DNA of 64,000 bases from Thuidium tamariscinum (lineage: Eukaryota; Streptophyta; Bryopsida; Hypnales; Thuidiaceae). Shown here piece after piece: positions 10,968 to 63,301 of this stretch (the stretch's first letter is position 1; each line of letters begins with the position of its first letter). The position numbers were made by a program, and so were the translations under genes. Below the pieces are notes generated by a model. The model had not been told where the DNA came from, made no database searches, and saw nothing but the letters and a program-made list of their open reading frames with translations. The stretch is from contig OX344751.2 in the NCBI GenBank assembly GCA_947034885.2, positions 36,321,582-36,385,581 on the forward strand, in the 5' to 3' direction.

Positions 10968-11728
10968 TTAACCCCTAAGCGCTCCAACATTCAATTTTTG
11001 GACGATGTATAGATTGAATGTCAAATTTCTTTCTCATTACAGTTTGGATGAAAGTCGTTCTAATTTTGGGGGATGCATTACGAAGTTGTTGTCTTATCTA
11101 AGAGTTGGATTTGTTGTGACTAGAGTACATATTATTTTGAAATTACAAATGTGAAAGTATGTCAAGTGGTTGAACAAGCCACTAGAAGAGAAAAGGGTGT
11201 TTTAAGTATAGTCCTAGAAATAAGATTTTAGGTGATGACCTTTTTAAGAGATTTTAAGTAAGAAATATGTGTCTTTCTAGTAAAAATTTATTAGAAAGAC
11301 ATGTATTTCTTACTTAAAATCTCTTAAAAAGATCATTACTTAAAATCTTATCTCAAGGACTATACCTAAAACACCCCTCTCTCTTGTAGTGTTAGGTGAT
11401 GGAATCAAAGAATACAAAAATTCCAAAAAATCACCATATCAAGAGAACCTCATTTGAAAACCATTCCAACAAATTTTACTAAAAGAATGAAAGTATTTTT
11501 CTTGACATTGAATTTTAAATGAATTTTGAAATCTTTCTTTCAATATTTATAGAAAGATATTGGTGATAGCATTCACGTGGTGAATCAAACTATATGGACA
11601 AAATCTAAATTCAAACCCTACAACTTTTGTTTACACCTCAATACCAAAATATTCTTCAATATAGTACTTTATGATGATTTTTTTTAAACCTTCATTTTTG
11701 GAGATGAATGTGGACACTTAGGGGTTAA
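10968..11728. mobile_element. TTAA-flanked TIR element (piggyBac-like ends), interrupted
   Basis: It starts TTAACCCCTAAG and ends CTTAGGGGTTAA. Without the nested 212-bp MITE the body is about 550 bp. It aligns well with the copy in the GAPDH intron at 40754-41276 (shared ATTACAAATGTG, AAAATCACCAT, CATTCCAACAA, ATATTGGTGATA). No transposase frame. The TTAA flanks and CCC/GGG ends are what piggyBac transposases use. Confidence 0.8.
11180..11391. mobile_element. CACTA-type MITE nested in a TTAA element
   Basis: The start CACTAGAAGAG..GGGTGTTTTAAG is the inverse of the end (ACACCCC..CTCTTGTAGTG). The 212-bp element is almost one long palindrome: GATTTTAAGTAAGAAATA in the left half recurs inverted as TATTTCTTACTTAAAATC. 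It interrupts the TTAA element, whose other copy lacks it, so it arrived later. I could not see a clear target-site duplication. Confidence 0.85.
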
Positions 11729-12309
11729 TGTTGAAATTTTTTTTAAATTTACAAATAAAATTTAGGATTTTCTCTTACAATTATGGATGGAAAATCAAAT
11801 GTATCCTACTACTTAAAATGCTTGTCTAATTTATATCAGTCTTCCTAGAGAATTTTATGATATTCCATTCAAATTAATAGAATATTCCATCATGATGGAC
11901 TTTGGGGTTTGTGTCAAATTACGGGTCGTGACATCTTAATGTTGTGATTTGATGTCATGTAGACAACTTTAGATGCACCTTAGTCAACCTCAATTGTAAC
12001 TCCCAAAACAAATACTTTTAGAATTTGCTTTAAAAAGATTATTGCAATTGAAAGCTCAATGCCTTAGAATGCAAATAATACATTATGGTGTGTTTTCCAA
12101 TCATTTATTTATTTATTTTAAATTTTAAATTATAAAATTATGATTATAATTGAACCCTTCATTTATAGTTAAAATTACATATTATTCCGCTATATATTAT
12201 AATTGATACAATTTGATTTTGACATCTAGCTTTAAAAAATTACAATAATTTGATTTTTCCATCAGAATTACTAAATAAATAAATTCACAATGAATCAAGT
12301 CCTCTAGGG

Positions 12310-12770
12310 ATTAATTGGCTACCATTCAACAGTCCAGTTAGTCCACTAACAAATTCTATTGTTTCTTAGCTTCTATGCATATGTCTATCAAATGGGTTCA
12401 CCTTGTAGAATTGTACAATGTTCTAAGAGATACTAGAATAGAGATTGGATGGTAACCATTAATTGGCTACCATTTAATAATCTAGTTAGGCCATTCACAA
12501 ATTCTATTCATCTATTGCTTCTTGGTTTCTTTGCATATGCCAATAAAATATGTTCACCTTATAAAATTGTGCATTTTAAGAGATACTAGGAAATAGAGAT
12601 TAGATGATAACGATTAAATTGCTACCATTTGATAGTCTAATTAGTCCACTAACAAATTCAATTGCTTTTTTATTTTTGTACATAAGCTTATGCATATCAA
12701 ATAGGTTTAGCTTGTAGGATTGTGCACTTTAAGAGACATTAGGAAATAGATATTAGATAGATGATGGAAA
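12310..12770 (+). repeat. Tandem repeat, three diverged units of about 150 bp
   Basis: Units begin at about 12310, 12458 and 12613 with ATTAATTGGCTACCATT or a variant. They continue through TAGTCCACTAACAAATTC, GCATAT, TTCACCTTGTAGAATTGT and AAGAGATACTAG. Spacing is 148 and 155 bases. The units differ by many substitutions and small indels, so the duplication is old. No open frame is preserved across units. Confidence 0.8.
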
Positions 12771-12842
12771 AATGTTTCAAAAAATAGATTGAATTTTCTT
12801 TTGATGAGGTGTCACTTAGTGGAGATTTGAAGAGTTACATTA

Positions 12843-14490
12843 GGTCATTGCAAGAAACATTGTCCATTTTTTGTAGTGTTTTGGAATTGGACTTTTTTTT
12901 TCAGGAATACTATTTAATTAGAAAAAAAAAATTAAAAACATGAAAAATATGTCTCATGTAAACACTTTAAAGAAGAAGGTATTCCTTGAAGGAAAAGCTT
13001 AGGAAAATTTTCTAAGTTGGAGAATTTGAAAAGTGCAAAATCTCATGAAAATGGGTATATTTACATTTATATCTTTTAAAAATAGAAGAATCTATTTTTT
13101 TAAATCTAAAAATTGGCCATTTTGTAAGAGTTGATGGTGATGGGATTTCACCAAAAAAACAATCTTAGCACCATCGTTAATGTTTAAAAACTGCATGCAA
13201 TGGGAGTATTATTTGCACACATGTGGAGGACATAAGATAATGTATTTTTAGATTTTCTTTTGTAAAAATATGCATTCCTACCATGCAAAGGTATTATGAA
13301 AATTTCACCTTTAGGTCATTAAATTTGGGGATGCCTAATGTAGTAAAAAATCCTAAACCTCAATTTTGTAACAAATTTTTTTAACCCCTTAAGGACTAAG
13401 AGGACACAATGTGTCTATTCCAAAGTTTTCAATGGCAATTTTTTGAAAGGGTGAAACAAATATCAGTATTTTGTAAACTAAGATCTTGTACAAAAAGAAG
13501 TTTACATACTTTTCATTTTCCAATTCTCTAATTTTGAATGTCAAAAGTAGTTAAAAATTCATTTTTGAAATGTAATCGAGAATGTAGTCTAGTAGGAAAA
13601 GAAAGCAAGTATAATGTTTTTTCATGAAAAGAATAGTAGAGATGGAAAAAAAACATTTTCTTACACAATTATATTCTATAATCCACACAAACAAACAAAA
13701 TTTGAAAAAAAAATTGAAATTCTTGTTTTTAACAATTTTTTGAATAAAAGGTTCAATCAAGTGTAATTAATGATACAAAATAATTAAAATGATTTCAAAT
13801 TTTTTTAAGATATTCCAAAAAATATGATAATAAAATTCATTGTAAAATTTCAAAAATTTATCCATATATAAATTTTTAAGAATTTTGTAGGATCCAATTT
13901 GCTTGGAATTGACTTTCTACTCTTTATGTTTGAGAATGTGTACAAATTTGAGAGATTTTTATTTTCTTCAAATTTTCAAATAAAAAATTACAAAATTTGC
14001 TTTAGATTCCAAATAATTTTTTAAGGGGGGTTAAAAAAATATTTATTCATCTTTTTATTAATTTTTTTTTCCAAAACCTACGGCTTAGGCCTATGAAGTT
14101 AATCATCCAAAATTGTTATAATCTAAAGATCTAACGGTCCAAATTTCCTAAAATTCATTCCATGCATACTAGATAAAGTAATCTTTACTTTTGTACGGTT
14201 AAAATTTTAAAAATTATTCACATCTATGTGCAAAAAAATACCAAAGTGCTAGAATTCATTGAAAACCTCCATTGTCAAAATTGTGTTAGTCCTTAAGGGA
14301 TTAAATGAATTTTAAATATGTAATGATTTTTCTTAATTTCCAAAAAAAAGGGATGTAAAAACCATCAAGTCACAAAGGTCCACTAATTATTTCATGTTTT
14401 TAGATCTTTGGATTCAAAAGTTACAACATAAAAGAACAAGGTCACTCCAATTGTAACGGAGAATAGGACCAATGTTTCTTGCAATCATCC
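12843..14490. mobile_element. GCAAGAAACAC-family TIR element, subfamily A, split by a nested insertion
   Basis: The left end is GGTCATTGCAAGAAACA and the right end TGTTTCTTGCAATCATCC, with TA on both outer sides. Total span is about 1650 bp. Removing the nested element at 13381-14304 leaves about 720 bp, the same as the related copy at 6365-7100. Its arms match that copy in inverse orientation, for example AATTTTCTAAGTTGGAGAA against its complement near 6905-6935. Confidence 0.82.
13381..14304. mobile_element. TTAA-flanked TIR element nested in another transposon
   Basis: The left end is TTAACCCCTTAAGGACTAA and the right end TTAGTCCTTAAGGGATTAA. The element is about 920 bp, AT-rich and without a transposase frame. 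It sits inside the GCAAGAAACAC element at 12843-14490 and so is the younger of the two. Confidence 0.82.
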
Positions 14491-15683
14491 TATTGAACTT
14501 TTATTGTAGCTCAAAGTGTGTGAAAATGAAACCTAAGGTGTAATTTTACCATTAAGGTTCAAAAGGGCAAGATTTTGTAATTTTTAGTAACTTAAAGATA
14601 TACAGTTACTATGTCAAAAAAAAACTCTTGCATCCCTCACATCTCTTCACCTTACTATGGGCTTGTTTTGTGTTACCATCACCTATTTGTAGACTTGTGA
14701 TAGTTTCTGTTACATCAATACTTTTTAATTTTAACCAAAGCATTGAAGTCCACAAGTGGTCTTTTGGTTGATGACAAACTATGTCATTTCATGTCTAAGT
14801 TTTGATCCTCCTAATGCACTTGAAACACCTCCAATCTATTGTGAGGTGACTTCAAATTTCTTTGATCAAATTGTAGATTTGATTATGCTTAAATCTACTT
14901 TGGAATTATCTAGATGATTTTTTGAACAATTTTTTTAATAAATTTGATTGTTTCATTGTAAATAATTTAAGATTTGAAAATAGCATTTACTTCACATTTT
15001 TTCACCATTTTCTTTTTACAAATTCTAATTAATTTATTTGATACATGCTTCCAATAAATATGTAGAATTTATAAAAGGTTTCTTCTATATTGATACTTAA
15101 GTAATTTAATCACAACCATACCCCATTTACGGTACCATCATTTAATTTAAGCTTTCTTATACCTTTTTCTTATGACTTTATATTTTGGAGTTTGAATTAG
15201 AGAAGAACTTCAAATGTTGCTTATATAGCCAATTTCCTATAAATAATCTACAAGTAAAGGTACATTTCATCAATATCAATAAAGAATGAGTTAACAAATG
15301 CTTAGAGATTCCTAAATAATTTTTGGCTATTTTTAACAACAACCCTAAATATTTCTTAGGATGTTGTTATGGTTTCCTTGTGGGTTTCCTATGTGACAAA
15401 GTGGCATCAAAAAGATTCTAAGAACAAACAAACTACTCATTCTTTCCATCTAAAGTAGCATCTTTGATCTTCAAACTAATTAATATTGATGACTTAGTAT
15501 CCTAGAAATTTTTCAAAAATTAACATTAAAATTTTAATATAAAAATCATCTAGTGTACCTTACATAATTGCCACAACCAAAATTAAAAGTAATAGTAATT
15601 GCTACTCTTTTTATTTGTAAAAACTTCAAAAATCCAACATTTTTACATTATATGTCCAAATGCCACAAAGCAAAGCCATTAGA
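14491..15683. other. AT-rich intergenic DNA, nothing recognised
   Basis: I see no open frame of note, no clear terminal repeat and no RNA gene in this stretch. It may be decayed transposon sequence. Confidence 0.5.
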
Positions 15684-16439
15684 GGGTGATTGCAAGGAAC
15701 ACTTCATGTTTTTGGCTCAAAACGCTGTTTTTGGACATAGTACTAGCAGTACTACGCAATCCTGACAGTACAACCCGTCTGACGTGCGCCTATAAATCTC
15801 AACCGTCGATTTCGTGGGCCTGTAGATCTGGGCCGTTAATATAATACTATGCAATACTATGCAGTACTATAGAGTACTACAAATACTTTACAGGCTACAT
15901 GGAGTAAAATTAGCAGAAAAAGGGAATGTGGACCTTTTCATTTTTAATAATTCGAAAAAAAATCAAAAAATTATTTTTAAAAGAAGAAATTTTTCTAAAC
16001 AAAATTGCGCTCATATTGCAACAAAAAATTCCTCTAAATTTTTTTTCCCTCTTTGTAGCATTTGTACAAAGGAAGGTCACTTTGACCCCATGTGGACAAT
16101 AGACATTTTACTATTTTTATAAAAAATCATTGTCAATCCTTGAAATGTTAGTAGACCTCCAACTTGTCCAATTTGTGGCTTCAAATTTGGATTTTTGAGT
16201 CAAAAATAGGACTAAAAACCTCCAAAATGGCCAAGGTAGACAGCCAATCGGGGGAAATTTAAAAATAGTAAAATAATTTTAAGAAAATTGAAAAATTATA
16301 AAACATATAAAACTTTTGTGTGCACCTTCATTCCAAATTTCAAGTTGATAGGGCAAAATATGCAAAAGTTATGAGCAAAAAACTACCCGTTGGAGGTCAA
16401 GGGGACAAAAAATTGGACAAGTGTTTCTTGCAATCACCC
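15684..16439. mobile_element. GCAAGAAACAC-family TIR element, subfamily B
   Basis: The left end is GGGTGATTGCAAGGAACACT and the right end AGTGTTTCTTGCAATCACCC. Length is about 756 bp. It aligns over its whole length with 62335-63079 and, inverted, with 63588 onward. Shared landmarks include GTACTATAGAGTACTAC-like repeats near the left end, GTCACTTTGACCCCATGTG, TTGGAGGTCAAGG and TTTGTGTGCACCTTCATT. Flanks read TAGA on both sides. The short open frame at 15859-16122 is not conserved coding sequence. Confidence 0.85.
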
Positions 16440-17815
16440 TAGATGAGGTTTAGGTGTTCAACAAGATTGTGAGTTTCCGGAGTGTGGGGAATGTGGGAAC
16501 TAGACCTCAACAACAATTAAACATGGTCAACCTTTAGCCATGTCAAATGAAAATATATGATTAATTTTTAATTTTTAATTAATTTTTAGTGAATTTTTAA
16601 AATTATTTAAAAATAAATTAATATTTAATATTTTGACAGCTACCTACTTTGATAGCAAGTAATAATTAACACCACAAAGACAGAGTGGTCTCTACAAAAA
16701 TCCTATGCCTTGCAAAAATATAAACCATCTACTTTTAAAAATTCAAAAGTACTCACCAAAGACCAAATTATTGTTCATGATCTCCTCTTTTTGTACCAAA
16801 TTTTAAGGATGAACAATTGCACTTTTATCTTACATGCAAGAATTCTTTGTCATCCATTGGACACTTAGTGTCTATAGTAGTGTTATTCAATTAACCCTTA
16901 AATGCTCAAGCCTTTTCAAGTGTATTGTGACTATGAAAAAAGAGCATTGACTTGTAGTTCTCTCCAATGAAGCAAAAAATTTTCCCCAAATCTAACCATA
17001 TAGATGTTTATAAAGTTTGTTTATTAGTATGAATGCCAATTTTGACTACAAAATTTCATAGGGTTGGAAAATTATACCAAGAGAAATATACATTTTCTAT
17101 TTTTAGTATCTTATCTTTGCCTACAAAGTTTTATAAATTTGCATTTAAAAGTTTTTGGGATTGGAGGTAACATGAACAACTACAAAGAGTGTTAGCACAC
17201 TAAAATGCACTTCCAAAAAACTTAATATCACATGAAAAAACATCATCTGACTCGTTACACAATTCATCTTGCAATTGTTGAATGCAATTATTGAATGTAA
17301 TTGTTCTTTTATAAGTAGAAATTGCAAATAACTTCAAATCAACACTTGTATGTTGAGATTTTCAATAGTGAAAGTCATGAAAAGACTTTAGACTTTTCAT
17401 TAGCATCATTGTCAAAGCAAATGGACAAGTACAACTTTTAGATCTCAAATCAAGTAAAATTGCCCCTCGGACCAAAATACAATAAATCACAAAACATTCC
17501 CTCAAATTTTTTTGTAAAAGGTAAATTAGCCTATATAAGAAAACTACCCATGACAAATAAACCACCTATCATAGACACATATGAAATGACCTACTACAAT
17601 CTTGCATCAACTGATAACAAAAAATTTTAATAAATGAATTCTAGGGCTCTAGGCTTCATGAGGTTAACAATGAGTTGCCACAATCAATATCTTGGGTGAT
17701 GGTAATGGAAGGATTAGTGACTACAATAGGGACTTCACCTTTTTAGTGCAAATTCATTACATGAAGTGACTTTTTTAGGCCTTTATGTTATGACCATGTT
17801 AGAAAATATAACATA
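16440..17815. other. AT-rich intergenic DNA, nothing recognised
   Basis: The sequence TTAACCCTTAAATGCTCAAG at about 16893 resembles a TTAA-element left end, but I could not find its partner. The open frames of 60-67 codons near 17145-17565 have no recognisable motif. Confidence 0.45.
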
Positions 17816-19020: not shown

Positions 19021-19034
19021 ATTTGGATGGCAAA

Positions 19035-19074
19035 AATTCTACTTGCCTTAACTATAGTTATGGCAAGTAGAATT
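19035..19074. repeat. 40-bp near-perfect palindrome upstream of the LEA gene
   Basis: The arms AATTCTACTTGCC and GGCAAGTAGAATT enclose TAACTATAGTTA, itself a palindrome. Only one base pair in the 40 fails to match. It sits directly beside the MITE at 18664-19020. Confidence 0.8.
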
Positions 19075-22858: not shown

Positions 22859-23844
22859 CCAAGCCCTTTTCTTAATTTAAAGACATCATTGCTTTTGAAG
22901 TGGTAAAGATCTTATAGTTACTAAAGTATAGAAATCTAAATTATACAATCTTGTAGTGTATGTGTTGAAGATGATGTGAATGAAGCTTGAAGTTATTTGG
23001 CCGCTTATATTTCAAGATTATAATGTTTTAGAGTTGAAAAAGAATGTGGAAATTTTCCTAGCAATACATTTGGAGGACAAATTCAATTTTTGGAACCTAC
23101 TCAAATGAAAAAATATGAAACTATAAAGTGATTGAAATCCAATATACGAACACATTGGCAAAAGAAAATGTCATTTAGATGACTCATTGTCATTGTGTCT
23201 ACGAAATGACTCTGAATGTCAAAAAAAGGTAGAGAAGTTGCAAAAAAATAGACTTGAAATTGTACCTCCAACTAAAATGCTTCTCGGTCACTTATTACTT
23301 CTTGGATTGATATGAAATTTTATACATACAAACTTGTCTAGCTAGTATATTTGCCTTTCCAAAATAATTGTCAAAAATGGATATTGTATGAAGAAAAAGC
23401 AAGCTGCCAAAGTCCAATGTAATTCAATAATGTTAGGATTTTAAACTTTGAATTGCTCCCAAACATTCAAAACAACTTCGATTGACAAAATAAACTTTAC
23501 CATAATAATTAGACTTCAAGAGAAACATAATTCAACAATTTTTTTTAAAAACAAATATTGGATGAAGGAGACACTAATTTTCAAAGTTGCAACCATGAAA
23601 TGCAATTTGGTGAATTCAAATTGAACTTTTGAATTTTTGTTGGCATTCAATTGGTGTTGAAAAAAATAGTAGACCTTAGATTGATGTGAAATTCCGTAGT
23701 ACACAAACTAAAAGAGATAGTGTGAATTTCCCACCAAGTTTTATTGAATTCAAACATTGAATGCAAAAGTTAGATGACTTTGCATTGGACTTGAAACTAT
23801 ATTATGTGTGGACACACTTAGAAAGACTTGGCATTTAGGGTTAA
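22859..23844. mobile_element. TTAA-type TIR element, copy of the 44153-45099 element
   Basis: It aligns with 44153-45099 along its length: CATTGCTTTTGAAGTG, AAGTATAGAAATCTA, GATGATGTGAAT, TTCTTGGATTGATATGAAATTT, and TTGGTGAATTCAAATTGAAC. The right end is TTTAGGGTTAA; the left end has decayed to AAGCCCTTTTC. No transposase frame. Confidence 0.75.
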
Positions 23845-25745: not shown

Positions 25746-27177
25746 AGGGGAGCCACTATTCGTGAAATGCATACAACGTACCAGCATGCCCACACTGTCT
25801 GACGTTTTTTGGGCCCAGTGACAATTGAGATCACGAATAAATCTGCAAAACTCTTTGTAATGTCCACAGTGCTGTATGAGTAGATTATCGCATAGCCAGA
25901 TGCAGACTCGGTGTTGGCTTGATCCCACCGCGACCTGCACAAATGAAAACGAGACGACACAGATCGAGATGGGCACTTTTTTATTTTTGTTTTTTGAAAA
26001 GAACGTCTTCCGCACTTGCAGAGCTAGCAAACAAGAAATTGTGGTCAGCTGATCGATTGCATTGTGAGAGGCACTTGCAAGCTGTCAAACAAATTAGTAC
26101 TGCAGACACTGATCGAGATAGGCATAGAATAAATTTATTAGCTTTATTTGGCGATAAAGACGGCGTGTAGCTTGGTGGTGTCTTGATTAACCAATTAATT
26201 TTTTATTTTTGGCGTTCGGCAGGCTTCATAGGGGCCCAAGAGGACATGAACAGTAGTTTTTTGTTTTCATTTTATTTTAGTGACCTTTCATGTTGAGTTG
26301 CAAAGAGTCTCCAATTGAGTTTTTAGTCTAACTAATGTTTGTTTTTATATAGTTGAGAAGTACTTAGAGAAAACGGATGACAAAATTTGCCATTTTAGTG
26401 TATTTTGAGAAATTGACAAAATCTGAAATTTCTCTTTGAAAATGACATTTTCTGAGTTAGAGCCCAACTAATGAAATGAAGGTCCTCTCCTCCAGTTTCT
26501 ACTCCAATTGAAAATTTGTGAAAATTTGTAAAATGAATATTTTATTGTGGTTTGCACTTTGGCTGTATTTTTAATGTCCATTACTTTCTAATTATAGATG
26601 TATACGGTAAATTAATTTACACCATGATGATTTTCACTGTAATGTTCGCACATGGTGAAATTTTCAAATTTTTTGAGGTTATTTTCTATTTGATATGATT
26701 TTTCCTTCATTTTTCCTTCAAAAAATTTCAGAAAATACAATTTTCCTGAAAAAAATCTGAAATTTCTTCGAAGTACAGAGAACATGTAGTTTCATCTTTG
26801 AAAAATAAAAATAAAAATTTTCATACACATCTGATTACAAAATGGCAACAAATTGAGTGGTAGAGAGTGTGGGCTGAAACCAGTGGTTATAGGCCCGGCA
26901 TTTCAGGGTTAAGGGTCTTCACACTTATGGCCGAAGGTTGAGAGTCCATCTGTTTCCACCAATCAAATTTCAAGAAATCATGAGTTCAGCCTCTTGACCC
27001 TTCACACTATGCTAGACAAACCAAAATTTATAAAAATTTGATGGCCCCAATATTGCCTACACAGCAACCAAATGCTTACATGGTGACGGACTCTCAATTA
27101 GAGTTTGACTTGAGTAAAATTGGAGGCCCAAACTCTAGTTGAGAGGTTGTAGGGGTTTTTTCATTAAAAATCATAAT
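25746..27177. other. AT-rich intergenic DNA, nothing firm
   Basis: Positions 26850-27170 have a less AT-rich composition and look like part of a dispersed element, but I could not pair its ends. The 83-codon frame at 25919-26170 has no recognisable motif. Confidence 0.4.
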
Positions 27178-28105
27178 TTAATCCCTAAAGGTCAGAGACT
27201 ATGTCTGCACCAAAAACACACCAAAACTGCCATTTCTACTTCAAGCACCAAATTTTTGAAAAAAAAATTTTTAGACACATGTAACTATAAGATCTTATAG
27301 TACACTTGAGTGAAAAGATGTGGAAAAATTTCAGAATTTTTTGCTGTATAGATTGCAAGATATTAGCATTTGAATTGACAAAAATCCTTTTTTTGTCCTT
27401 GCAAAAAAGAAGGCAGCTGCACTTCACAAGGTCACATTTCTATGAAAAAATGTCCAAAATGGTGGTGCTTCTTTGGATTAATTCTTCACGGCAAGTTGGC
27501 TATATGCTCAAAAAATTTCGCATCATTTGGAATTGTACATTATTTAGGAAAAAATTAATAAGTAGAAAGAAGTAGAGAATGATTCAAAATACTAAATTGT
27601 TAAAATTTTATTTATAGAATAAAAAATGTCAATCCCAATGGTTGTAATGTTGTGACAAAGAATCAACATCCCAAGTTTTAATTTTCTTTCAAAAATATTT
27701 AAAATTGAGGAAAATAAAGGCTTTCAAGGTTTATTTCAAAATAGAGAATCCATAATCACCTGCAAACTAAATCTCTTTATAAATTTCATCTCATAAATCA
27801 AAATGGAGTGATTCAAAGCTTTCTGCATATATGTACATCTAAAAAACCAATTTCAAATTTTGAATTTTGAAAAAAAAAATTTATAAGAAATTTTTGGATT
27901 GCCTGCCAACCAATGAAAACTACATATCATGCAATAACTTTTGACCATGTAGTCAAAAGTTATGAAAATTGTCAGGCCTTAAAGCTACTCCTTTGGCACA
28001 TGTTGTGTAAAAATTTCAATGAAAAAAAATAAAAACTCCATCTGTAGTGAGCTGCCCAAAATTGCTATGTTGCCGAAAAACACAATTTGGTCTTCTAGGG
28101 GTTAA
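27178..28105. mobile_element. TTAA-flanked TIR element, copy of the 52712-53622 element
   Basis: The left end is TTAATCCCTAAAGG and the right end CTAGGGGTTAA. It aligns with 52712-53622 across the interior: AGATTGCA..ATATCAG, CAAGTTGGCTA, CATTTGGAATTGTACA, ATGCAATAACTTTT and ACCATGTAGTCAAAAGT. The two copies have short open frames with similar peptides (QVGYML and IIWNCT), but each is only 65-89 codons and resembles no transposase, so I treat this as shared ancestry rather than coding. Confidence 0.8.
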
Positions 28106-28465: not shown

Positions 28466-28850
28466 TTAAGGTAAGAGGTCCTATAATGGACCATCTAAGG
28501 GCTGAAACAGAATTTCAGGAAGGTAAGACTTCTAAAAATATTTTTCAGTAAATTTTCCTTGAAAGACAAGTAGAATTGACAATTAACTCAAGTCGTTTTA
28601 TATTTTTTTTGAGCTTTTTTGAATTAGTTATCAAATTTTGAAGTTGAAAGGGCATAGGGCTCTAAAATGGTGCCCTAGCTAAAATGTACACTGTCAGTAC
28701 ACTACTGAAGGCTATGAAAAAGCAACATGTACAAGTACTGTACATTTAAGTACACTACTGAAGGCTATGAAAAAGCAACATGTACAAGTACTGTACATTT
28801 AAGATAGGGCACCATTTCAGAACCCGCTCCATTTAAGAGCCTTCTACCTT
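28466..28850. mobile_element. MITE with TTAAGGTA ends and internal duplication
   Basis: The left end is TTAAGGTAAGAGG and the right end CTTCTACCTTAA. It aligns with 60803-61128 and with a truncated copy at 63490-63587; shared landmarks are CCATCTAAGGGC, ATTTTTCAGTAAATTTT and GAAAGACAAGTAGAAT. It holds a 53-bp exact tandem duplication (28696-28801) containing AGTACACTACTGAAGG and ACATGTACAAGTACTGTACA. The other full copy has a single diverged version. Confidence 0.75.
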
Positions 28851-30023
28851 AATTAACACAGACTTGGCCGAAGATTAGCGCCTTGGCTGCCGGCTGCCGG
28901 CCGTCAGCCTTGTGAACGGACACGCGCGTGCTGCTGCTCACGTCGCTGCGTCCTGGTTGTCGAAGTTCTGGCACGTACTGCATGTCGCCCACCAAGGACG
29001 TGGTGATGGGCGTGCCGCTACAGCTCTTGTCGTTTGAATGTCTCGATCTTGGCCGCCTCTACGACGACGAAGCTGCTGCTCACCATCGTGCAGCACTGAC
29101 ACACCCACCACGCCGCTTGCTGGGATCGATCTGCGCGATGATGACGATCGATGCATCAGATATGTCAAATTGTTAACAACCTCTTTGGAAAGGCTGAATA
29201 AATCGCCAGACACATGAATTTATGTCGGCGATCGAGTAACTACTGAGTTGGCCGGATTGAAATTCTCGCAGAGAGACCGACACTCAGACTGCTGATCGCA
29301 GCTGTGAAGCCAAAGCGATGCAATGTGATGCACGTGCAGAGTGACAAAGTTACCAGGCACTCAATTTAATTTATACAAGTTCCAACAGGAGCAAGATAGT
29401 GCAGATGGCATGGGTTTCCAGATGTCGACGAGGATGTTGACTTCTTGGAACCATGAAGATTGGGAACAATGCGTAACCAGCGACGTCCCGTAGAAATCAT
29501 CTGGGAGCGTTGTGACCTCCAACATCATGACCATATATACACTCGAAAACATCCTGTAATTGCAAAGAAAACATGTGAGTGCGTTTAAGAGCCCAATTGT
29601 TCGCCAAAGGCACACAGTTAAGTGTAATTATCCTACTTGCTTTTTTCTGAGAAGTAACGACCTGGAATACTGACATCCTTCAGTATCAAGCATGGATTCC
29701 GTCTGATTGATTGCCAGTAAATTGCAGGCTTCTTATCCATTGCACGAGACAAGTCAGAGATTTCTGGGCAACAGCAGTTCCAAAGAAAAGATGATGGCAA
29801 CCATGACCATTGACCACCTCATAGGTAGGGAAAAAATTCTAGGGCTAAACTTTGGCCATGATATGTTTGGGTCCTTGCTATACCGAACGAGCATATTGAT
29901 CACTCACCTACACTGTGATCAATAGTCAGACATACTACTCCGAATGAACGCAAGAAAAAGGGTAAAACGGGCCTTCTGTGTACATTCAGTCATGAATTGA
30001 TAAAAGGATTCCTTTGCTCTCTA
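28851..30023. other. Intergenic DNA with a GC-rich patch, no gene recognised
   Basis: Positions 28865-29110 are markedly GC-rich and have open frames on both strands (82 and 91 codons), but no motif I recognise. Exon-like stretches occur at about 29361-29615 (minus; DDFYGTSLVTHC) and 29725-29824 (plus; acceptor-like TTGCAG then ASYPLHETSQRFLGN, then a donor). They may be remnants of real genes. I cannot name them. Confidence 0.3.
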
Positions 30024-32399: not shown

Positions 32400-32715
32400 T
32401 TTCTTTCAAAGTGTCCCCAATAGTACCTTGAAACTTTAGTTGTGGTTGGTGGGCTCTCATTATTTTAAATTTTGGTGTGAGAATTAAGGTAAATTTACTA
32501 GGAGTGCAAATTTAGGTGCTCTACTAAGTCCTACTTTGAAAATTCACAGAAATTAGATGTCTTGTCCAAAAATTCTATTTTTTTTTTAATTCATGATTTT
32601 CAGTTGCCAATACTGCAAAAATATTCTTTGTAGGAAAAGGTGCCTCCAACTATGCTGAAACTACTAACACTAGCAGGAATGGGTGCTTCTACCTTAACCC
32701 TAAAACATCTCAATC
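32400..32715. mobile_element. Degenerate copy of the TAAGGAA MITE
   Basis: It shares AATTCATGATTTTCA, GCCAATACTG.AAAAATATT and GCCTCCAACTATGCTGAA with 18664-19020. The ends have decayed. Confidence 0.6.
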
Positions 32716-33493
32716 TTTTTTTGAATTTTTGTGCATTATTGCTTATAGCTTTGTATAGATATATAGTTTTTCAGAATTTAATGAATTTGGTCATTAAGAA
32801 AGGTTGTCTTTTCTAGATTCAAGTATTACATTTGATATATGAGAAGTTAATTGGATGAAACAGTGCCTTGAAGCCCTATGTTCAAAATATGGACATCAAA
32901 GTGTTTTAAGGTTAACCATGTGAGATTGGTGGGCAAAGTTAGAAGGGAGAGTTAGAGGGTTTGAGGAGGGGGTTTTGAACAACATTTCACTTGATCTAAC
33001 ACATTTGAGCCTCTTTGCCACTATCCTCTACATTTCCATCTATATAACAAAGTCAGCAAACTAATACATAGCCAAAAAACTATGGGTCTATGCGAACAAT
33101 TGCACTTCTACATAAACCTAATAGATGTAAAGTAATTGAGTAAGAATTTCACACATATTGATTCCCTTCGAGTGTAACCATTCTTTACCAATGGGATTGT
33201 TTATTAATTTTGGTGAAACTTTAAATCCTCCTTTTGTTGGGAAGACAATCAATGGAATCTTCTTGTCTTCTGGTACTTTTTTTATCCACCAATCTCATAT
33301 GGTAGGAGTGCTTATATGCCATAATTTAGCCTTTATATCATTCAATATGTTAATCTTCATGCACCTTCTCATCACATTGAATCTCTGTCTCTATTGATAA
33401 AGTTTAATTGTATATAGAATGTTCCATATATACCATCTATCAGAGCATGATGGCCATCTAGGTATTGTAATGCCTTCTAATACAACAAGCTAG
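32716..33493. other. AT-rich intergenic DNA, nothing recognised
   Basis: The longest frame (79 codons, 33158-33397) has no motif I recognise. No terminal repeats found. Confidence 0.45.
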
Positions 33494-34799: not shown

Positions 34800-34941
34800 T
34801 TGCAAGAGAATGAGGTGTTTTAAGAGTATATGTACTTTTAGTAAATTTTTGTTATAAATTGCCTTAAATGTCATTACTTATAATCTTATCACTAAAACTA
34901 TACTTAAAAATTCACTTAAAACACCCCTTTCTCTTGTAGTG
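34800..34941. mobile_element. CACTA-type MITE, 142 bp
   Basis: The left end GCAAGAGAATGAGGTGTTTT matches the inverse of the right end (AAAACACCCCTTTCTCTTG then TAGTG). The body matches 4597-4717 and, more loosely, 11180-11391. Confidence 0.75.
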
Positions 34942-38474: not shown

Positions 38475-42039
<3,565 letters not shown>

Positions 42040-44152: not shown

Positions 44153-45099
44153 TTAACCCCTTTAGAAGTTAAAAACAACATTGCTTTTGAAGTGTTAGAG
44201 GTCTAAATGTCATTAAAGTATGGAAATCTCAATTATAGAATCTTGAAGTGTAAGTATTGTAGATGATGTGAATCAAATTTGGAGTTATTTGGCCACATAG
44301 ATTGAGAGATTATAATATTAGTATTGAAAAAAAATGCTAAAATTTTCCTTAAAACACATTTGGAGGTCAAATGTGATTTCTAAACCTACTCAAGTGACAA
44401 AACTTTGAACTAAAATGTGCTTCACAATCACAATACAAGCACATTAGTATAAGAAAATATCATTCAATTGACTCATTGTATTTACAAAGTGGCTTTTAAA
44501 TGTCAAAATATAATTGTGAAAAATACATCTAGGGTTAAACCTCTTTTTACTACAAAAATTTTCAATCACTCATAACTTCTTGGATTGATATGAAATTTTA
44601 GCCACACAAACTAGACTAGTAAATGCAACTTTTTCAAAAACTATTGGAACAAACACAATGTGAAGAAGAAACAAGCTGTTGAAGTTCACTATAATCCAGA
44701 AATGTTTTATTTTTTAACTTCAAATTGTTTTCAAATATTCAAAAAAACTTAGATTGATATGGAAATTTGGCCACAATAACTAGACTTCTAGAGGAAAATA
44801 ATCCAATAAATTTTATTGAAAACAAACATTGGATGAAGGAGATACAAGCCCCTGAAGTTGCAACCATTAATTGTAGTTTGGTGAACTCAAATTGAACTTG
44901 TGAACTTTGATTGACCCTCCAAAAAATCATTACATCTTAGATTTGTTAAAAAAATCTTACCACATAACTAAAAGAAAGAGTGCAAATTTTTCTTTAAGTT
45001 TTATTGAATTTGGGTAGTAGATGTGAAAGTTACAACACTTCAAATTGGACTTCTAAATTGTAAGGACACTTTTGGTCCCCTAGGGCACTCAGGGGTTAA
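44153..45099. mobile_element. TTAA-flanked TIR element, about 947 bp
   Basis: It starts TTAACCCCTTTAG and ends CTCAGGGGTTAA. It aligns end to end with 22859-23844. It has no coding frame over 63 codons. Confidence 0.8.
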
Positions 45100-48139: not shown

Positions 48140-48479
48140 TACTCATGAAAGTGTCTGCAAGGCAGCTCTCCAAAGCTACCAAACAACAATTGTCTGCACA
48201 GACAGTTTCAACATCAGTCACACAGTGTCTGTCGTTTTAAACTTTCTTCACATAATTAAAAACCTACTCAAAATCTGTGTTCCTTTCAATTATTTAAGCA
48301 GAGCCAAAAACGGATGTGCTCATGGAATCTCTCCTGGTGCACCACCAACGTGACCACAATATTGGGAAAGCAGATTTTGTGGTTAGGAGTTGCAGCTCAC
48401 AACTGACAAGCCTCGAGTGTCTGCATGGGCATGAAAAAGGTCTTTCTGCAGCTCATCCAGAGCTACCAAACAGACAATT

Positions 48480-48990
48480 CTCTGCCACTTTTCAACATCA
48501 TTTGCAGTTCATTTTGCTGTCATTTGGAGAATTGCCCGCCACGCAATTTACGAACTGGAAATTTCTCTGCTGCTTTTCAACATCATTTGCAGTTCATTTT
48601 GCTGTCATTTGGAGAATTGCCCGCCACGCAATTTACAAACTGGAAATTTCTCTGCTGCTTTTCAACATCATTTGCAGTTCATTTTGCTGTCATTTGGAGA
48701 ATTGCCCGCCACACAATTTACAAACTGGAAATCTCTCTGCCACTTTTCAACATCATCTGCAGTTCATTTTGCTATCACTTGGAGAATTGTGTGCCACGCA
48801 TTTTACAAACTGGAAATCTCTCTGCCACTTTTCAACATCATCTGCAGTTTATTTTGCTGTCATTTGGAGAATTTCTCGCCACGCAATTTACGAACTGAAA
48901 ATTTCTCTGCTGCTTTTGAACATCATTTGCAGTTCATTTTGCTATCACTTGGAGAATTGTGCGCCACACAATTTACAAACTGGAAATTCG
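48480..48990 (+). repeat. 85-bp tandem array, six units
   Basis: The word TTCAACATCAT or its variant starts at 48491, 48576, 48661, 48746, 48831 and 48916, always 85 bases apart. Each unit carries TTTGCAGTTCATTTTGCT, GGAGAATTG and CACGCAATTTAC. Since 85 is not a multiple of three, the same three peptides rotate through all frames and no frame has a stop, which creates three overlapping long open frames (48316-49014, 48425-48898, 48609-49226). I do not call any of them a gene. Confidence 0.93.
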
Positions 48991-51900
48991 AGCCGTGTTG
49001 GAGTTGGTGTTTGATGTTGTCATTGATGAATTTGCCATCCATAAGCTTAGTGCTCTGTCTATTGTCAGCTGATTTGTTTTCCATTCACCTACTCCACCCC
49101 ATAAATTATCATCTCCACGTGGTTGGACGAGGGGCTTTCAGGCCTCTGGATTATTGTCATGTGCCGCAGTCTGAGAAAATCTTGTCTGTGGACGGTGGAA
49201 ATGCACCACAAACGCAAACCGCATGATTGCTATTTCCTGCCGCAAGTGAGGACTGTGGTACCGTACTTCTTGTAAGGAAAGTGTCCTCAACCTTCATAAT
49301 TGGAGTCCTTTTTTTTTATATCCCCAAAACCACAAGACACCAATGCAATAAAAGTGCGTTGAGTTTCTTTTTTTTGGTGTCAAAAAATCAGAAGAAAGAG
49401 CAAAGCGCTGCCCACTGCAGCTGCTTTGCCAGGCTGACAGGTGCAAAGTAGCTCTTCAAAAGAAGAGCAGTTATGATTTTCTGATGTGTTTTTTATTGAC
49501 AACAAAAGCTACATCAAAACGAGCATGCGGTTTTGCCATCGTAAGTTATTCAAAAGTGAATCAATGTGCAATGCGTGACACAAAAACGGCCTTGGACCAC
49601 ACAACAGCAGTTTGAAATGAAATAACTTAAGCTTCAAATTCATCATTCTCTTGATGTTCATGGCTTGTTCCCCACGTGGAGTATAGATCTACAGTTCCAA
49701 GCAAATTATATGCATGGCCTGGCTGAGGAAATATGGAGTAATATAATGCTATAATTTAACTGTTTAGTCTAATTGTATGATGGCCCACAGTGAGGAATGG
49801 AGGCCGCATCTTCTTGCTGTCATTTAGAATTAAGTACTTTTTGCATCACAAAGCTCATCTATTGACAACTGTAGCTCATCCATTGTCTTCAGTTGTGACT
49901 CAGCTTTCCTGGTCTTCAAAAGAGATGTGCAAACTGCTTCCAGAGTTTGATCCTGGCAGGCTAGCTGTGCTCCTTGTTTCGTAGACTAAAGAATATTCTG
50001 AATGGGATACCTTATGATAAAGCCACCCCATCACCGACGATCATAGCCAGTCTAAACCGGTGGAGGATTGAAGAAGTATTCATCCTTAACCCATCCAATG
50101 GATCTTTCTGTGTGGGAATGAAGTGCAACTATTCATCTTCAGAATTTTATGTGAAAAGGGGAGATCTTCTAGAATAGTTTGACTTCTAATGAGTGTTTTT
50201 GGATTTTTTTTTTAATCCTAGCGATTTTCATAATATTGAAATGGATGATTTTCACAGTTACTAGTTTGTCTTTTAAAGGTTGAATGTCTAATTGGTGACT
50301 AAGGAAAATATCCCTTTTGCTACAATATGACATCATGTTTTCATTTTTCCCTTAAGGTTACTCCAAGGTAAAGAACTACCAAGTGTAGCTCAAAATTGAT
50401 GGAAATTAGATTTACCACGGTGATTTTACTCACTTTAAATGGCCATGATATTTTTCTAAAATCTTCAAAACTTGTACCTCACTATCCACCTAAAAGACAT
50501 GATACCATGCCACAACTTCTAATAACTTCGGTATCATCACTTGCAAAATCCAAAGGCACTTTTATCAAATCTCCAAAGTATTTATTAATCCCTTGCTACC
50601 TTAGTAACCATATATAGTTGCTCTAAAATTTTAGCTTCTTTATATGTCGACAATTCAATTCCTTTAACCATTCTAAATTTTTTTTTTAAAGTAGTATTGA
50701 AGGTTAACTATTAGAAGCTTTTATTTTTCACTTAAAATGTACAATAGTATTTGACTTTTGAGAGGCCAAAAGTACTTAGTTCACTTCAAAAGTTGAAGGC
50801 AACATAACTTTTGATTTAGACAACTAATTTAGAAAAAAGAAATCAAATTATTACTGAAGGGTTACAAGTGTTTACACCTTGTGTCAGAATTTCATAAACA
50901 TCCAACTTAAATTGACTTCATTTGTAACTACCCAAGATCTGTTGGATACATTGAATGGTCCCTTAGAATTTATTTTATTGATAAATTTGTGTATGTTGAT
51001 TTTGAGGGGATAATAAGAGTTAATTCTAAATTGAAGAAATTATGATACTTCTAAATAAGATAGCATGCTCTTACTCTAAACTTACCACTAACACAAAGGT
51101 GGATGTCCCTTTCTTCAATGTACCAAAAGTGTACATTTCATGAAGTGGACTCTTTCAGTAACTACTATGTTTCAACTTCAAAAATTCATGCTCCTTCTAT
51201 TTTTGAAAAAAAAGACATTTTTTCTTTGTATATATAGGAAATACAAGCCTTTTTAGAAACAAAGGTAGAAAATTTACAGATATACAAAAAATATGAAATG
51301 ACTTGAGTTTGATACCAATTCTATATTTTCTTCCTATAAAAATTTATTAAATTTCTTTTCAAGAAATTTTAATTAGTTTCCCTTAAAATATACTCAACTC
51401 TGAAAAGGTTGCTTTAAGAGCAAATTAAGTTACCTTAGGTTAAATGATTCCTATGAAATTGTTGCAACACCTAGTAAAAGCAGATTGCCCAAAGTAGAAT
51501 TTATAACAGTTCGTTGTGATTTAAAGGACTTGGAGACTGAATTGTGGATGTCATTGGTTGGTGCCCGCTTGAGGTGATTGATGGAGCTCTTCACTTGTAG
51601 GGAGCTTGCCAATTAATACAACTTAACCCTTTTACCTCATTTTTCATAATTAACCTTTAAACGTGGACACAAACATTTTGTATTCGATGGATGATAAAGA
51701 TTCTTTTAGTGTGGGACAAAAGTGTAACTATTCATTCAATTGGAATTTTGAGTGGAAAGGAGAGATCTTCTATAATAGGTTGACTTTTAATGGGTGCTTT
51801 TAAGATTTTCTTAAACCATTACTATTGATTGAAGAATTCATATTACAAATGGTTTGAGGGGATGAAAGATAAATTGATTTCTACATTTTTGTAGGTGACC

Positions 51901-52711: not shown

Positions 52712-53622
52712 TTAACCCCTACAAGTTTTTGAGTATGTTTTCACCAAAAGTGCTCCAAATATGTCATTTCTAGGACAACTACCAAATTTTTTTTTAAAAA
52801 CATTTTTGGAATAATGTAACCGTAGGATCTTTAAGTGCACTAGTTCAAGAAGATGTAGAAAAAATTTCAGAAAGTTTCACCATGTAGATTGCAGGATATC
52901 AGTGTTTGCAATTGCAAAAATCTTTTTTTTACTGCTGCGAAAATTTGGGCAGGTGCAATTCAGAAGGTTACATTTGTATGAAATTTTTTTCAAAATGGTT
53001 TTTACTCTTTGTAATCATTATTTAATTCAAGTTGGCTACATGCTTGAAAATTTTCAAATCATTTGGAATTGTACAACATGTAAAAAAAATAGTAAGTAGA
53101 ATAAAGTAGATAATGATTCAAATACTAAAATGTTAACAATTGATTTGTTGAATTGAAAAATGCCAATCCCAATGTTGTAATAAACAATCTACACCCAATT
53201 TTTAAATTTTTTTTCAAAAATATTGAAAATTGAATAAAATAAAGGACTTCAAAGTTTTTTTTAAAGTAGAGAATCTATAACTACTCAGAAACTAAAATTC
53301 TTCATAACTTTTGAGTCATGGAATGATTCAAAGTTTTCCACGTATATATAAATCTATAAAATCAATTTCAAATTTTTATTTACGAAAAAAGTGATTTTTT
53401 ATGATCTGCCTGAATTGCCCGAGTTGAGAAAAAAAAACCATATTATGCAATAACTTTTCAACCATGTAGTCAAAAGTCACAAAAATTGTTGAACTTTGAA
53501 GATACTCCTTGTCCACACCTTCTATTAAAGTTTGGTTTCAAAACATTGAAATCTCTAGTCACACGTACCTGCCCAAAATTGATATGTTGCCAAAAAAGGC
53601 ACTTTGGTCCTTTAGGGGTTAA
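52712..53622. mobile_element. TTAA-flanked TIR element with a paralogous empty site
   Basis: It begins TTAACCCCTAC and ends TTTAGGGGTTAA, about 911 bp. Its surroundings (GATGAAAAATAAAT before, TTTAAAATTGACTTACTAAG after) are a second copy of 51861-51928 (GATGAAAGATAAAT...TTTAAAATTGACTTACTTAG). With the element and one TTAA removed, the two copies are both 68 bases long. That fits insertion into TTAA with duplication of that site. No transposase frame. Confidence 0.85.
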
Positions 53623-56035: not shown

Positions 56036-56090
56036 TATCGTCAAAATTCATATGATTGCATTTTCAAACTGAGCACACAAGTATTGTTGC

Positions 56091-57555
56091 TTAACCCCTG
56101 AAAGCCCATTGTCCTCTCAAGGGACAATTTGGAATTTGGGTAGGTTTCAATGACCTCAATTTTTAGTTGAATTTTTTGAATTTTTTTCATAAGATAGGAA
56201 AACTGATTAGCTATGTGGGAATATAATTAATATTTCAATTAGTGCCCGGGAGTAGAAGTTATACCACAAAAGCCAAAATTTCAACTTAGTGAGCACAAAA
56301 ATGAATCCACAAAAAATTGAAATTGAAATTAACTTTTTAAGAAAATCTTATTGACTATATTTTTGTCTATATGTAAAACTTTGATTCATTTGATTTGGAT
56401 TAGTTATATGAAAGTTATGAATAATCTTGTTTTTTGGGCAGTTTTAGCATCTTTTTGAAAAAATAACTCGTTGGATTCATTTCTGAATGTAAGTTTCATA
56501 ATTTATCAAAAAAAAATCTTGACAAGGTTAAAATTTCTTACTAGACCAATCTCTCCATTGGGATTATTGTGTTTTGATCCCATTATGGAACTATTAATGA
56601 TTTAGTTTTTCTTTCAATTTTGGATTCACCTCTACTTAATAATTTTTTTAAGAATGAAAATCAACCATTTAAGAAAAAAATATCTCAGACTTTCAACTCA
56701 ATTCTTGAATACAATTTTTTTTTAATTCAAAGTCCAAAGTGCAAAAAATTTCAATAGATGGTAGTCAAAGTCATTTGAAAAAGTAGGACATTATACACTC
56801 TCTTTTGAGTGGATAGTAAGGGACATGTTCCACCACTCAAAAGACAGTGTTCAAGAAAAACATTTGCATTTTGAAATCCCCTAGCCCCCTTGGATTTTGT
56901 TAATTAATTTAATTTTTTTGATTTTAATTCAATACACCCCACCTCTTCTTTATAATTTTGAGAAGGGGTTGAGAAGACAAACAATATGGGACAATATCTA
57001 CTCCCATAATCCATATTTGTAACCATATTTGGTATTTGGTATTCATATCATATTAGCTCATGTATTTGTATCTCATCCCATATGCGTCTCTAATTCCATA
57101 TTTGTAATTGTATTTGGTATTTTATGTTTGTATCGTATCTATATTCATACTTTATATCCCTAGATCAACAATTGTGAATGTCAACCACATGCTCCATGAA
57201 TGGCCCTCCATTTTTTTCGTCAAAAAGATCAACCGTAGGAAAGGGACTTCTTCTTGATCAATGGCTATGCTTATTCGAGGAAGAGGGGTTTAAAGCCAGG
57301 ATGCCAACATCTTTTGCAAGGACTGTTAAAAAAAACTCTATTTTAAAAACTTTAAATCGTGCTTTGAACACAAATATCCTTCAATCTATATAGTCAAACT
57401 TCATGAAATTTTTACAATATGACCTCAAAAATAAATTATAAGATCCTAAATTAGATCTCAAACAAAACAAAATTTGTTCTCTTGGATAAATGCAACCAAA
57501 ATGGCAGTTTTGAGTGTTTTTTGAAAAAAAATGACCTTGGGCCTTTGAAAGTTAA
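56091..57555. mobile_element. Long TTAA-flanked TIR element, about 1465 bp
   Basis: The left end is TTAACCCCTGAAAGCCC and the right end GGGCCTTTGAAAGTTAA. It is longer than its relatives and may carry further insertions. The region 56770-56850 contains an inverted pair (CACTCTCTTTTGAGTGG / CCACCACTCAAAAGACAGTG). A 71-codon frame at 57178-57393 is not recognisable. Confidence 0.65.
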
Positions 57556-60500: not shown

Positions 60501-60802
60501 TCCTCACAAGTATAGCTTTGTCCCCGTCTCCAATGCGAAGCCTCGTCCTCTATGGTTCAGAGCCAATAAGCTCCGGAGCCCAAATTGTTTATCATGAGCA
60601 GACGGGTCATGCGTGGGCGCACGCCCCATGAATTTGTGTAACTTAGGCCCCATGAATTCAGTGTGTACGACTCCAGGCCCTTGCCCAGCAGCTACGTAAC
60701 GCAGTCTGTTACGGAACAGCCAGCCAGCTGGGGTGAAAGAATGGCCACATGGCCAATTGATAATTCAAAACCCAAAGTTGAAAATACCTCCCGCATGATA
60801 AC
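57556..60802. other. AT-rich intergenic DNA with small repeats
   Basis: A short tandem repeat (TAGAAGGAGTATCATA, about 2.5 units) lies at 58945-58990. Positions 59720-59830 are the inverse of 46144-46250. The 136-codon frame at 59451-59861 runs through that repeat and has no known motif. Positions 60480-60720 are GC-richer but unrecognised. Confidence 0.45.
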
Positions 60803-61128
60803 TTAGAAGTAGGAGGTCCATAAATTGACCATCTAAGGGCCGGAACTGAATTTCCGGGGGTAAAACATCTTGAAATATTTTTCAGCAAATTTTCTTTGAA
60901 AGACAAGTAGAATAGGCATTTAACCCAAGTTGTTTCATATTTTTTGGAGCTTTTTGGAATTAATTAAGAATTTCTGAAGTCAATGTGGCATAGGGCTCCA
61001 GAACCGCCCCCCCTAAAATGTACATTGTTTGTACATTTCTCTTATTGAAAAACATCATGTACAAATAAGGTACATTTTGGAAGGTGGACGGTTTTGGAGC
61101 CGGGGTGGTTTCCAAGTGTCCTACCTTA
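60803..61128. mobile_element. MITE, copy of 28466-28850
   Basis: The left end is GAAGTAGGAGGTCCAT and the right end GTGTCCTACCTTA. It shares CCATCTAAGGGC, ATTTTTCAGCAAATTTT, AAAGACAAGTAGAAT and GGCATAGGGCTC with the other copy. Confidence 0.7.
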
Positions 61129-61357
61129 TTTGCAAAGAGGCTTTTGAAGCATCCATCTTTGAATCACACCAGTGGAAATAAAATAACCATGTTGGCAAAC
61201 TCCAGAGGACTCCTCCACAAATCATCCAAATCATCTGTGCCACGCGAAGCTTCCATCATGACCTTGTGAAAGATGCTGGTGAATCCCAAGCCATTTAATT
61301 TGACATGCCGGCAAGTTTATTTGACCCCTATGGTGGAAGCACCCAAAAACGTTCAAA
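61129..61357. other. Short intergenic stretch, nothing recognised
   Basis: No repeat or gene could be supported here. Confidence 0.4.
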
Positions 61358-61708
61358 TAAGGAATTCAGCATAGTTGGAGGTAGCTTTTTCTTAAAATGA
61401 TATTTTTCTAGTATTAGTGAGTGAAAATCATGAATATTCTATTAAAAAAAATATTTTTAAAATGTTGTCTGTAATTTCTCTAATTTTTCAAAGTATTGGC
61501 TCCCTAGATCACTGAAACTGTGCAATAGGTGCACCCAAAACTCAACCTTACTAAAATCAATAGTGAACCAATTGGATATTTATATGTGTCCTTGAAATGC
61601 GTCAACCAATTAGAATCAAGCATGTGGCGAACACAATAAGGGAACTCTACTGACACAATTGGGTGAGTCTACGATCCATTGGAAGGAACACGTTCAAAAA
61701 TGGGTGTT
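61358..61708. mobile_element. MITE with TAAGGAA ends, inverse copy of 18664-19020
   Basis: It starts TAAGGAATTCAGCATAGTTG and ends GGGTGTTTCCCCTTA. It aligns along its length, inverted, with the copy before the LEA gene. Confidence 0.72.
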
Positions 61709-63301
61709 TCCCCTTAAATGCCCAATGCCTTTTTTGAGCTTTCAATTGAGTGAATTATTGACAAAATATTCAAATATCTCGAGATAATAACACTTAGAGA
61801 TATCCAGATGTTATGTAGTGATCTCCCATTGCTTTGCATAAATCTCTTGATGTTTTACATTATCTCCTTATGACCATTTTTTTTCAAATATTATTTTTGA
61901 ACCTTTTGAAAGTCCAAAAGTAGTTAAATGTGGCATACTCACTCTAAATTGAACAAAAATCCAACATTCATATTTGATAACATAGTTGATAAGTTGTATC
62001 AATTTCTTTTGAATTATAAACATACAAATTCAACATTTTAGTAATCATGTAGGAAAAGAAAACACATCAATATCACTTATGGATTGAAAGATTATAATGT
62101 TTGATCATGAGTGTGTTAAAACTATATAAGTGATTTGAAGTCTTTCAATCCTCTTTTCACATGTCAAATCTAAAAAATTGGTCATCAAAAAACATATGAG
62201 GTTAATGGGCCCAATATGCATAACTTAAATCAATTAAAACTTCTCAAAATCTATTCTTTACATGAAATTATAATGTAATTTTTTCTCTTAGATTTAGTGT
62301 ATTTGAGGCTTCAAGAGCCTTGTTCAACACTATAGGGTCATTGCAAGAAACACTTCACGATTTTGTCTCAAAAACACAATCTTTGGATGTAGGACTGACA
62401 GTACTGTGCGATCCTGCCAATACTGCGCATCTGCATTGCGCTTGTCAATGTTAGCCGTTGATTTTTGGGTACCTGTAAATTTGGGTTGTTGATTTAGTAT
62501 TATGTAGTACTATGAAGTACTACTCAGGCCACTGCGGGTAGAAAAATTATAGTAGAAAAGGGGTTTGTGGACCTTTTCATTTTTAGTAATTAAAAAAAAC
62601 TCAAAAAAATATTTAATAAAATACATTTTTCTAAACAAAATTGTGCTCACATTGCAACAAAAAATTCTTTTAGGAATTTTTTTCCCTCTTCATAGCCTTT
62701 TTTACCTAGGAAGGTCACTTTGACCCCATGTGTGCAATAGACATGTTGCTAATTTCATAAAAACTCATCATTACCCCTTGTAATGTTAGTAGACCTCCAA
62801 CACGTCCAATTTGTGGCTTCAAATTCGGATTTTTGGGTCAAAAATAGGACTAAAAACCTCCAAAATGCCCAAAGTAGACACCCAATTGGAGGTAGTTCAA
62901 AAATAGTAAACTAATTGTAAGAAAACTAAAAAAATTATTCAACGTCTAAAACTTTTGTGTGCACCTTCATTTGAAATTTCAAGCCCATAGGATAAAAGAT
63001 GCAAAAGTTATGAGCATAAAACTACCTATTGGAGGTCAAGGGGGACAAAAAAAAGGACAAGTGTTTCTTGCAATCACCCTATAGCAGAAAGTCAAGATTG
63101 CAATGGACACCTTTGCACAAATTCTTGAATAAGAAAATCATAATCAATTATTTTCAAAATTGGATTATTGATGCTCAAATTGAACTTCAAAAAGAAATTA
63201 AAAAAATAGATACTACTAAAAATAGCAACTTTATCAAATTTTATTTAACTTCAAAATATTGTCAACACCAAAATTTGGTCCCTTAGGCATTTAGGGGTTA
63301 A
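61709..63301. mobile_element. TTAA-type element carrying a nested TIR element
   Basis: The right end is GGCATTTAGGGGTTAA. The left end (CCTTAAATGCCCAATGCC) matches its inverse but merges with the MITE at 61358-61708, so the exact left boundary is unclear. Without the nested element at 62335-63079 the body is about 850 bp, the usual size of this family. Confidence 0.65.
62335..63079. mobile_element. GCAAGAAACAC-family TIR element, subfamily B, nested
   Basis: The left end is GGGTCATTGCAAGAAACACT and the right end AGTGTTTCTTGCAATCACCC, 745 bp, with TATA on both sides. It aligns along its whole length with 15684-16439. Confidence 0.85.

Follow-up and report, generated by a model that had tools for sequence, protein, structure and literature searches.

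Which transposons gave rise to the short, TTAA-flanked elements that recur in the genome of the moss Thuidium tamariscinum? The question was raised by a stretch of 64,000 nucleotides (contig OX344751.2, positions 36,321,582 to 36,385,581 of the forward strand), here called the window. An earlier note, made from the letters alone, had listed nine noncoding elements with CCCC/GGGG ends in it and had assigned them to the piggyBac superfamily. We name the elements by their first position in the window: 10968, 13381, 22859, 27178, 40754, 44153, 52712, 56091, and 61709. They are, very probably, nonautonomous piggyBac miniature inverted-repeat transposable elements (MITEs) of several families, which were moved by cut and paste into TTAA sites by the DDE_Tnp_1_7 transposases of full-length elements in the same genome. 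The piggyBac membership itself is ordinary; what is of interest is the host and the scale, together with the recent copies and a companion domain upstream of the transposase.

The nine elements were recovered at their claimed places. The motif TTAACCCC is present at positions 10968, 13381, 44153, 52712, and 56091, and GGGGTTAA at positions 11721, 14027, 28098, 45092, 53615, and 63294. On both strands of the window, TTAACCCCT was counted 10 times; 200 first-order Markov simulations averaged 0.5 such sites and never exceeded 3. Five of the nine elements retained both ends (10968, 13381, 27178, 44153, and 52712), three retained a single end (22859, 56091, and 61709), and 40754 retained neither. 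The decay of ends in 22859, 40754, and 61709 had been recognized before; the right end of 56091 is also decayed. At least three sequence groups had been proposed, and we found 10968/40754, 22859/44153, and 27178/52712, with 13381, 56091, and 61709 each separate, except for a 108-bp stretch that 56091 has in common with 52712 (71%). Furthermore, in agreement with the claim that the elements contain no transposase, tblastn with four transposases of the same genome (E up to 1) detected no coding remnants in the window. As a positive control, the same command recovered the transposases of the genomic loci L021, L039, and L017.

The earlier note had proposed a search for a piggyBac transposase elsewhere in the genome, and DDE_Tnp_1_7 was indeed found inside elements with TTAACCC...GGGTTAA ends. 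With PF13843 (DDE_Tnp_1_7), 116 of 657 candidates were scored, and all 116 were over the cut-off (best E 5.7e-80); in 14 control genomes there were 0 matches. We fetched 20 transposase loci of 9.9 kb (L021 to L040) and 12 shorter ones of 4.2 kb (L009 to L020). A pair of TTAACCC...GGGTTAA ends could be assigned in 18 of the 20 longer loci, and no pair was found in L039 and L040. One element of 5,096 bp (both TTAA included) occupied 11 of the 20 loci, and its ten other copies were 99.94 to 100% identical to the copy in L021. The other full-length families measured 5,094 bp (L032 and L033), 5,615 bp (L034 and L035), and 6,048 to 6,320 bp (L036 to L038).

Four transposases from four full-length families were compared. 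Their open reading frames (ORFs) have 870 to 1,180 codons, with DDE_Tnp_1_7 matches at E 1.5e-76 to 6.4e-80. The aspartates D662, D767, D883, and D886 (P0001 numbering) are invariant in the four proteins and aligned with the aspartates of piggyBat; the catalytic residues of Trichoplusia ni piggyBac are D268, D346, and D447 (and D450). Also invariant are C980, C983, C991, C994, C999, C1003, and H1008 of a C-terminal cysteine-rich motif that was recognized by eye and over which no Pfam domain was called in the four transposases. In a PDB search, one of the transposases matched two chains, piggyBat and 6x67, which we take to be a piggyBac structure. Like piggyBac (T. ni) and piggyBat (Myotis lucifugus) (PDB 6x67 and 9c0f), the elements described here have TTAA flanks, CCC...GGG ends, and a DDE_Tnp_1_7 transposase with catalytic aspartates and a cysteine-rich C terminus. 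The sequence similarity to the PDB chains is distant (E 1e-22 and 3e-27). Unlike piggyBac and piggyBat, they reside in a plant, their ORFs are longer than the PDB chains (594 and 578 residues), and the companion domain lies upstream of the transposase in 20 of 20 ten-kb loci. According to the proposed mechanism, these full-length elements would supply the transposase, which would act in trans on the MITE ends and move the MITEs by cut and paste into TTAA sites. Excision would then restore the TTAA, as is known for piggyBac.

For the link between MITEs and full-length partners, we compared 16 MITE ends (first 8 bases excluded) with 10 full-length ends. As a null, 910 ends beside other TTAA sites of the window were used, with CCC/GGG sites dropped. 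Two full-length families were matched, in both cases with 0 of the 910 null ends as good: 10968 and the fetched copies L051 and L052, which belong to one family, matched family D (L037) by their left ends, and 44153 matched family B (L032) by its right end. The opposite ends of these elements (right in the 10968 family, left in 44153) did not stand out. At the level of end sequence, a partner link, by one end each, is shown for the 10968 and 44153 families, and the common TTAACCCCT terminus suggests that the remaining MITE families may have such partners as well. In all, 4 of the 16 MITE ends had such a match, three of them in one family.

Insertion sites were analyzed in two ways. Among 12 fetched MITE copies, which were chosen among the best matches and are therefore biased toward intact ends, 11 had TTAA on both sides, and L049 was without TTAA at the left. 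In addition, 96 candidate end pairs were joined, and the joins were searched in the window and the fetched loci as models of unoccupied sites. Matches across the junction were obtained for 4 of the 96 pairs. For the insertion L024:8909-9830, which is related to the 56091 element (75 to 76%), three unoccupied relatives with a single TTAA each were detected, one at 28773 to 28854 of the window (90%) and two in L017 and L010 (both 92%).

Several results weigh against the piggyBac explanation or limit its support. The L031:3139-8234 join matched a 79% relative that reads CTAA, and the L031:2164-8234 join is the same one in mispaired form. The 52712 join aligned to a 79% relative across gaps, with no TTAA at the site, and carries no weight either way. 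The search for the full-length ends used the pattern TTAACCC...GGGTTAA, so that their TTAA is there by construction. Finally, for 12 of the 16 MITE ends, no match to any of the 10 full-length ends passed the 5% null level; the nearest of them, the left end of 27178 and the right end of 61709, were equaled by 52 of the 910 null ends. Therefore, among the 10 full-length ends sampled, no partner was identified for 13381, 27178/52712, 56091, and 61709. The 12 unmatched ends would be in line with an origin of these partnerless families from another TTAA-targeting superfamily, Kolobok or Sola3. However, the families have the CCCCT...AGGGG termini that are common to the full-length piggyBac elements, and the termini of Kolobok and Sola3 differ from these. 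We consider such an origin very unlikely.

Judged by sequence alone, TTAACCCC can also be read as T-TA-ACCCC, that is, as the end of a Tc1/mariner-like or other TA-target element with ACCCCT ends and a TTAA that arose by chance. Counting the base before the TA is a test of the target that is independent of how copies were chosen. We searched the genome (363.2 Mb, 19 contigs) with each pattern and, as a control, with the pattern read backwards. On the two strands, TTAACCCCT was present 15,145 + 15,014 times (30,159 in total) and its control 1,956 + 1,992 times (3,948 in total), an excess of 26,211 and a ratio of 7.6. A TA-only target predicts that VTAACCCCT is more frequent than TTAACCCCT. However, VTAACCCCT was counted 2,727 + 2,686 times (5,413) versus 3,492 + 3,577 times (7,069) for its control, which is below the control and not an excess. 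Since the other three bases are not enriched before TAACCCCT, T is the base that precedes the TA, which refutes a TA-only target: the outer base is not freely chosen, as it would be for Tc1/mariner. In addition, full-length elements with the same termini carry DDE_Tnp_1_7, and we regard the chance of a TA target as close to negligible. TTAA rather than TA, as the earlier note had argued, is the target, and its piggyBac assignment is supported by the target and partner checks alike. Spread of a repeated block by segmental or tandem duplication, which the tandem repeats in some flanks (L031) might suggest, is dismissed as equally improbable, because the ten 5,096-bp copies align to L021 only up to 7 bases or fewer from the TTAA at both ends and their 12-base flanks differ at every site.

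A second conserved region lies upstream of the transposase. In L021, L032, and L034, a second ORF precedes the transposase ORF on the same strand, and the three ORFs have a region of approximately 100 residues in common, the companion domain (motif LGW...R). The upstream protein of L034 had 143 matches in the genome. Fifty-one of the 116 scored DDE matches had such a match on the same strand, 1,174 to 2,748 bp upstream, while approximately 0.11 were expected by chance, and two DDE/companion pairs within 6 kb showed another arrangement. The remaining 92 of the 143 companion matches were not so placed beside a scored DDE match, with 541 DDE candidates being outside the scoring, and the remaining 65 of the 116 DDE matches were without a companion match when the L034 protein was the single query. 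A profile built from three families detected the domain in 20 of the 20 ten-kb loci (L021 to L040), including the nontraining loci L036 to L040 (E 7e-10 to 2e-15). It always shared the strand of the DDE match and lay 1,568 to 2,196 bp upstream of it in 18 loci; in L039 and L040, this distance was approximately 3,880 bp. L034 harbors a second copy on the opposite strand. Since 11 of the 20 loci are copies of one element, approximately 5 independent families have the companion domain. The profile had no match in the window and none in L009 to L020, whose flanks of 1.5 kb fall below the smallest distance (1,568 bp) and are thus too short to hold the domain. Searches of Pfam and PDB with the domain gave no useful match, with one Presenilin match at E 1.5.

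The upstream ORF of L021, L032, and L034 runs into the first part of the transposase ORF in a different reading frame; in L037, approximately 1 kb separates the companion domain from the transposase ORF downstream of it. Because of this overlap and this gap, we favor the reading that the domain may be encoded by a spliced 5' exon of the transposase; alternatively, it could be a separate accessory protein. We see an even chance that a distinct and recently active piggyBac branch exists in land plants and carries the LGW...R domain, whether as 5' exon or as accessory protein, as a second conserved module.

The MITE families are abundant. The first-look candidates, which are loose counts, numbered 8,128 for 52712, 4,120 for 10968, 3,587 for 44153, 993 for 13381, and 6,326 for 56091; approximately 40 were scored per query, and the 10968 and 56091 queries contain nested insertions. 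The 52712 query had 39 other scored copies at 85 to 88%, and eight fetched copies of this family showed 88.6 to 93.0% identity to each other (mean, 90.5%). The scored copies of 13381 were 89 to 94% identical to the window copy over most of its length. Judging by these identities and by those of the 5,096-bp copies, the genome seems to hold MITE families of at least two ages next to a full-length family that is very young. The 5,096-bp family seems to have jumped very recently, and the youngest full-length family may still be mobile.

Piggybac is a standard genetic tool that came from animals, where the family is best known. Its MITEs in corals and moths are short, noncoding, TTAA-flanked, and repeated, like those described here; the differences are the host lineage and, in this genome, the 8,128 first-look candidates of a single family. 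Three things are unusual in this plant genome: its MITEs are abundant, full-length copies with long open frames are nearly identical, and a companion domain is conserved. Its 11 near-identical full-length copies and approximately 26,000 excess matching ends make it a natural setting in which to seek a plant-adapted piggyBac, and it is useful for asking how old piggyBac is in the green lineage and what the role of the conserved upstream domain is. The host genome had 49 chlorophyll a/b-binding matches and 6 LEAFY SAM-domain matches (one of them strong), which fits a streptophyte plant. Of the three best chlorophyll a/b-binding entries, the first, 9vfj, is a polyprotein (Euglena), and the other two, 8htu and 7xqp, are photosystem entries from mosses, so that a moss is the likely host.

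In the literature that we searched, which did not extend to repeat libraries, preprints, and most subscription papers, no description of a bryophyte piggyBac family was found. A repeat table for Ceratopteris (C-fern) has a PiggyBac row that reads 1230, 122417, 0.00. This row has in common with our data the piggyBac label in a land plant; in the table itself it is a repeat-annotation count, with no element described. In the available excerpts of other sources, piggyBac in plants is mentioned in passing without detail, and PiggyBac is listed among the superfamilies in a review. A match from Niphotrichum was rejected because the word was piggybacking.

In the window, the positions given in the earlier note stood, with corrections for three of the nine elements (10968, 56091, and 61709), which are composites with younger nested insertions. 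All nine were annotated on the plus strand. The 10968 element (10968 to 11728), of one family with 40754, has TTAA on both sides and the left end that matches family D. It is longer than its two fetched full-length relatives (587 and 584 bp) because of a younger foldback with CACTA...TAGTG ends nested at 11181 to 11391 (strand not assigned; inverted repeat 11180 to 11284/11287 to 11391, 89%). Two 98-bp repeat copies of CACTA/TAGTG type, ending in CTTGTAGTG, are located at 4620 to 4717 and 34844 to 34941. The element 13381 to 14034 has TTAA on both sides and a low divergence from its best copies. In the old MITE 22859 to 23844 of the 44153 family (71% to 44153 over 922 bp), the left end is decayed and the right GGGTTAA is kept. 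The MITE 27178 to 28105, related to 52712 (74%), has the ends TTAATCCCT...AGGGGTTAA. The decayed MITE 40754 to 41221 of the 10968 family has an unrecognizable right end and is 72% identical to L051 up to 41221. A GAPDH exon was found at 40101 to 40442; the element starts approximately 300 bp beyond it and is possibly inside or beside the GAPDH gene. The elements 44153 to 45099, whose right end matches family B, and 52712 to 53622 have TTAA on both sides.

The 56091 element reaches to position 57555 (approximate end), with its left TTAACCCCT kept and its right end decayed (AAAGTTAA). Many copies match positions 1 to 700 and 1272 to 1456 of this query and are without the middle, which marks a nested insertion at approximately 56791 to 57361. 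The old TTAA element 61709 to 63301, with its right end AGGGGTTAA kept, is split by a nested repeat (62334 to 63080); its relatives on C6 and C3 are without the repeat inside, and a repeat copy is near both. This high-copy repeat of approximately 750 bp is also present at 15677 to 16441 and 63591 to 63860. Its ends GGGTSATTGCAAG...CTTGCAATCACCC are inverted, and what look like 4-bp target duplications flank it (TATA and TAGA; CTAT in L007); in target length it resembles Sola2. The 61709 query, which includes the repeat, gave 8,343 first-look candidates, and most scored matches were that repeat.

The list of nine was incomplete, as three further likely TTAA-ended elements (at approximately 16891, 26239 to 26912, and 32694) had been missed. 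The element 26239 to 26912 has the right end TTAACCCTGAAATGCCGGGCC (read inwards) and is 86% identical to L031:2224-2898. The TTAACCCT-ended sequences 16891 to 17462 (relative in L008, 73%) and 32694 to 32884 (relative in L033, 88%) are probably two more TTAA elements. At L013:4000-4020, downstream of a transposase match, two different TTAACCC-ended sequences with 4 bases between their TTAAs are adjacent insertions. Finally, a tandem array of an 85-bp repeat (approximately 6 copies, 48379 to 49058) keeps long frames open.

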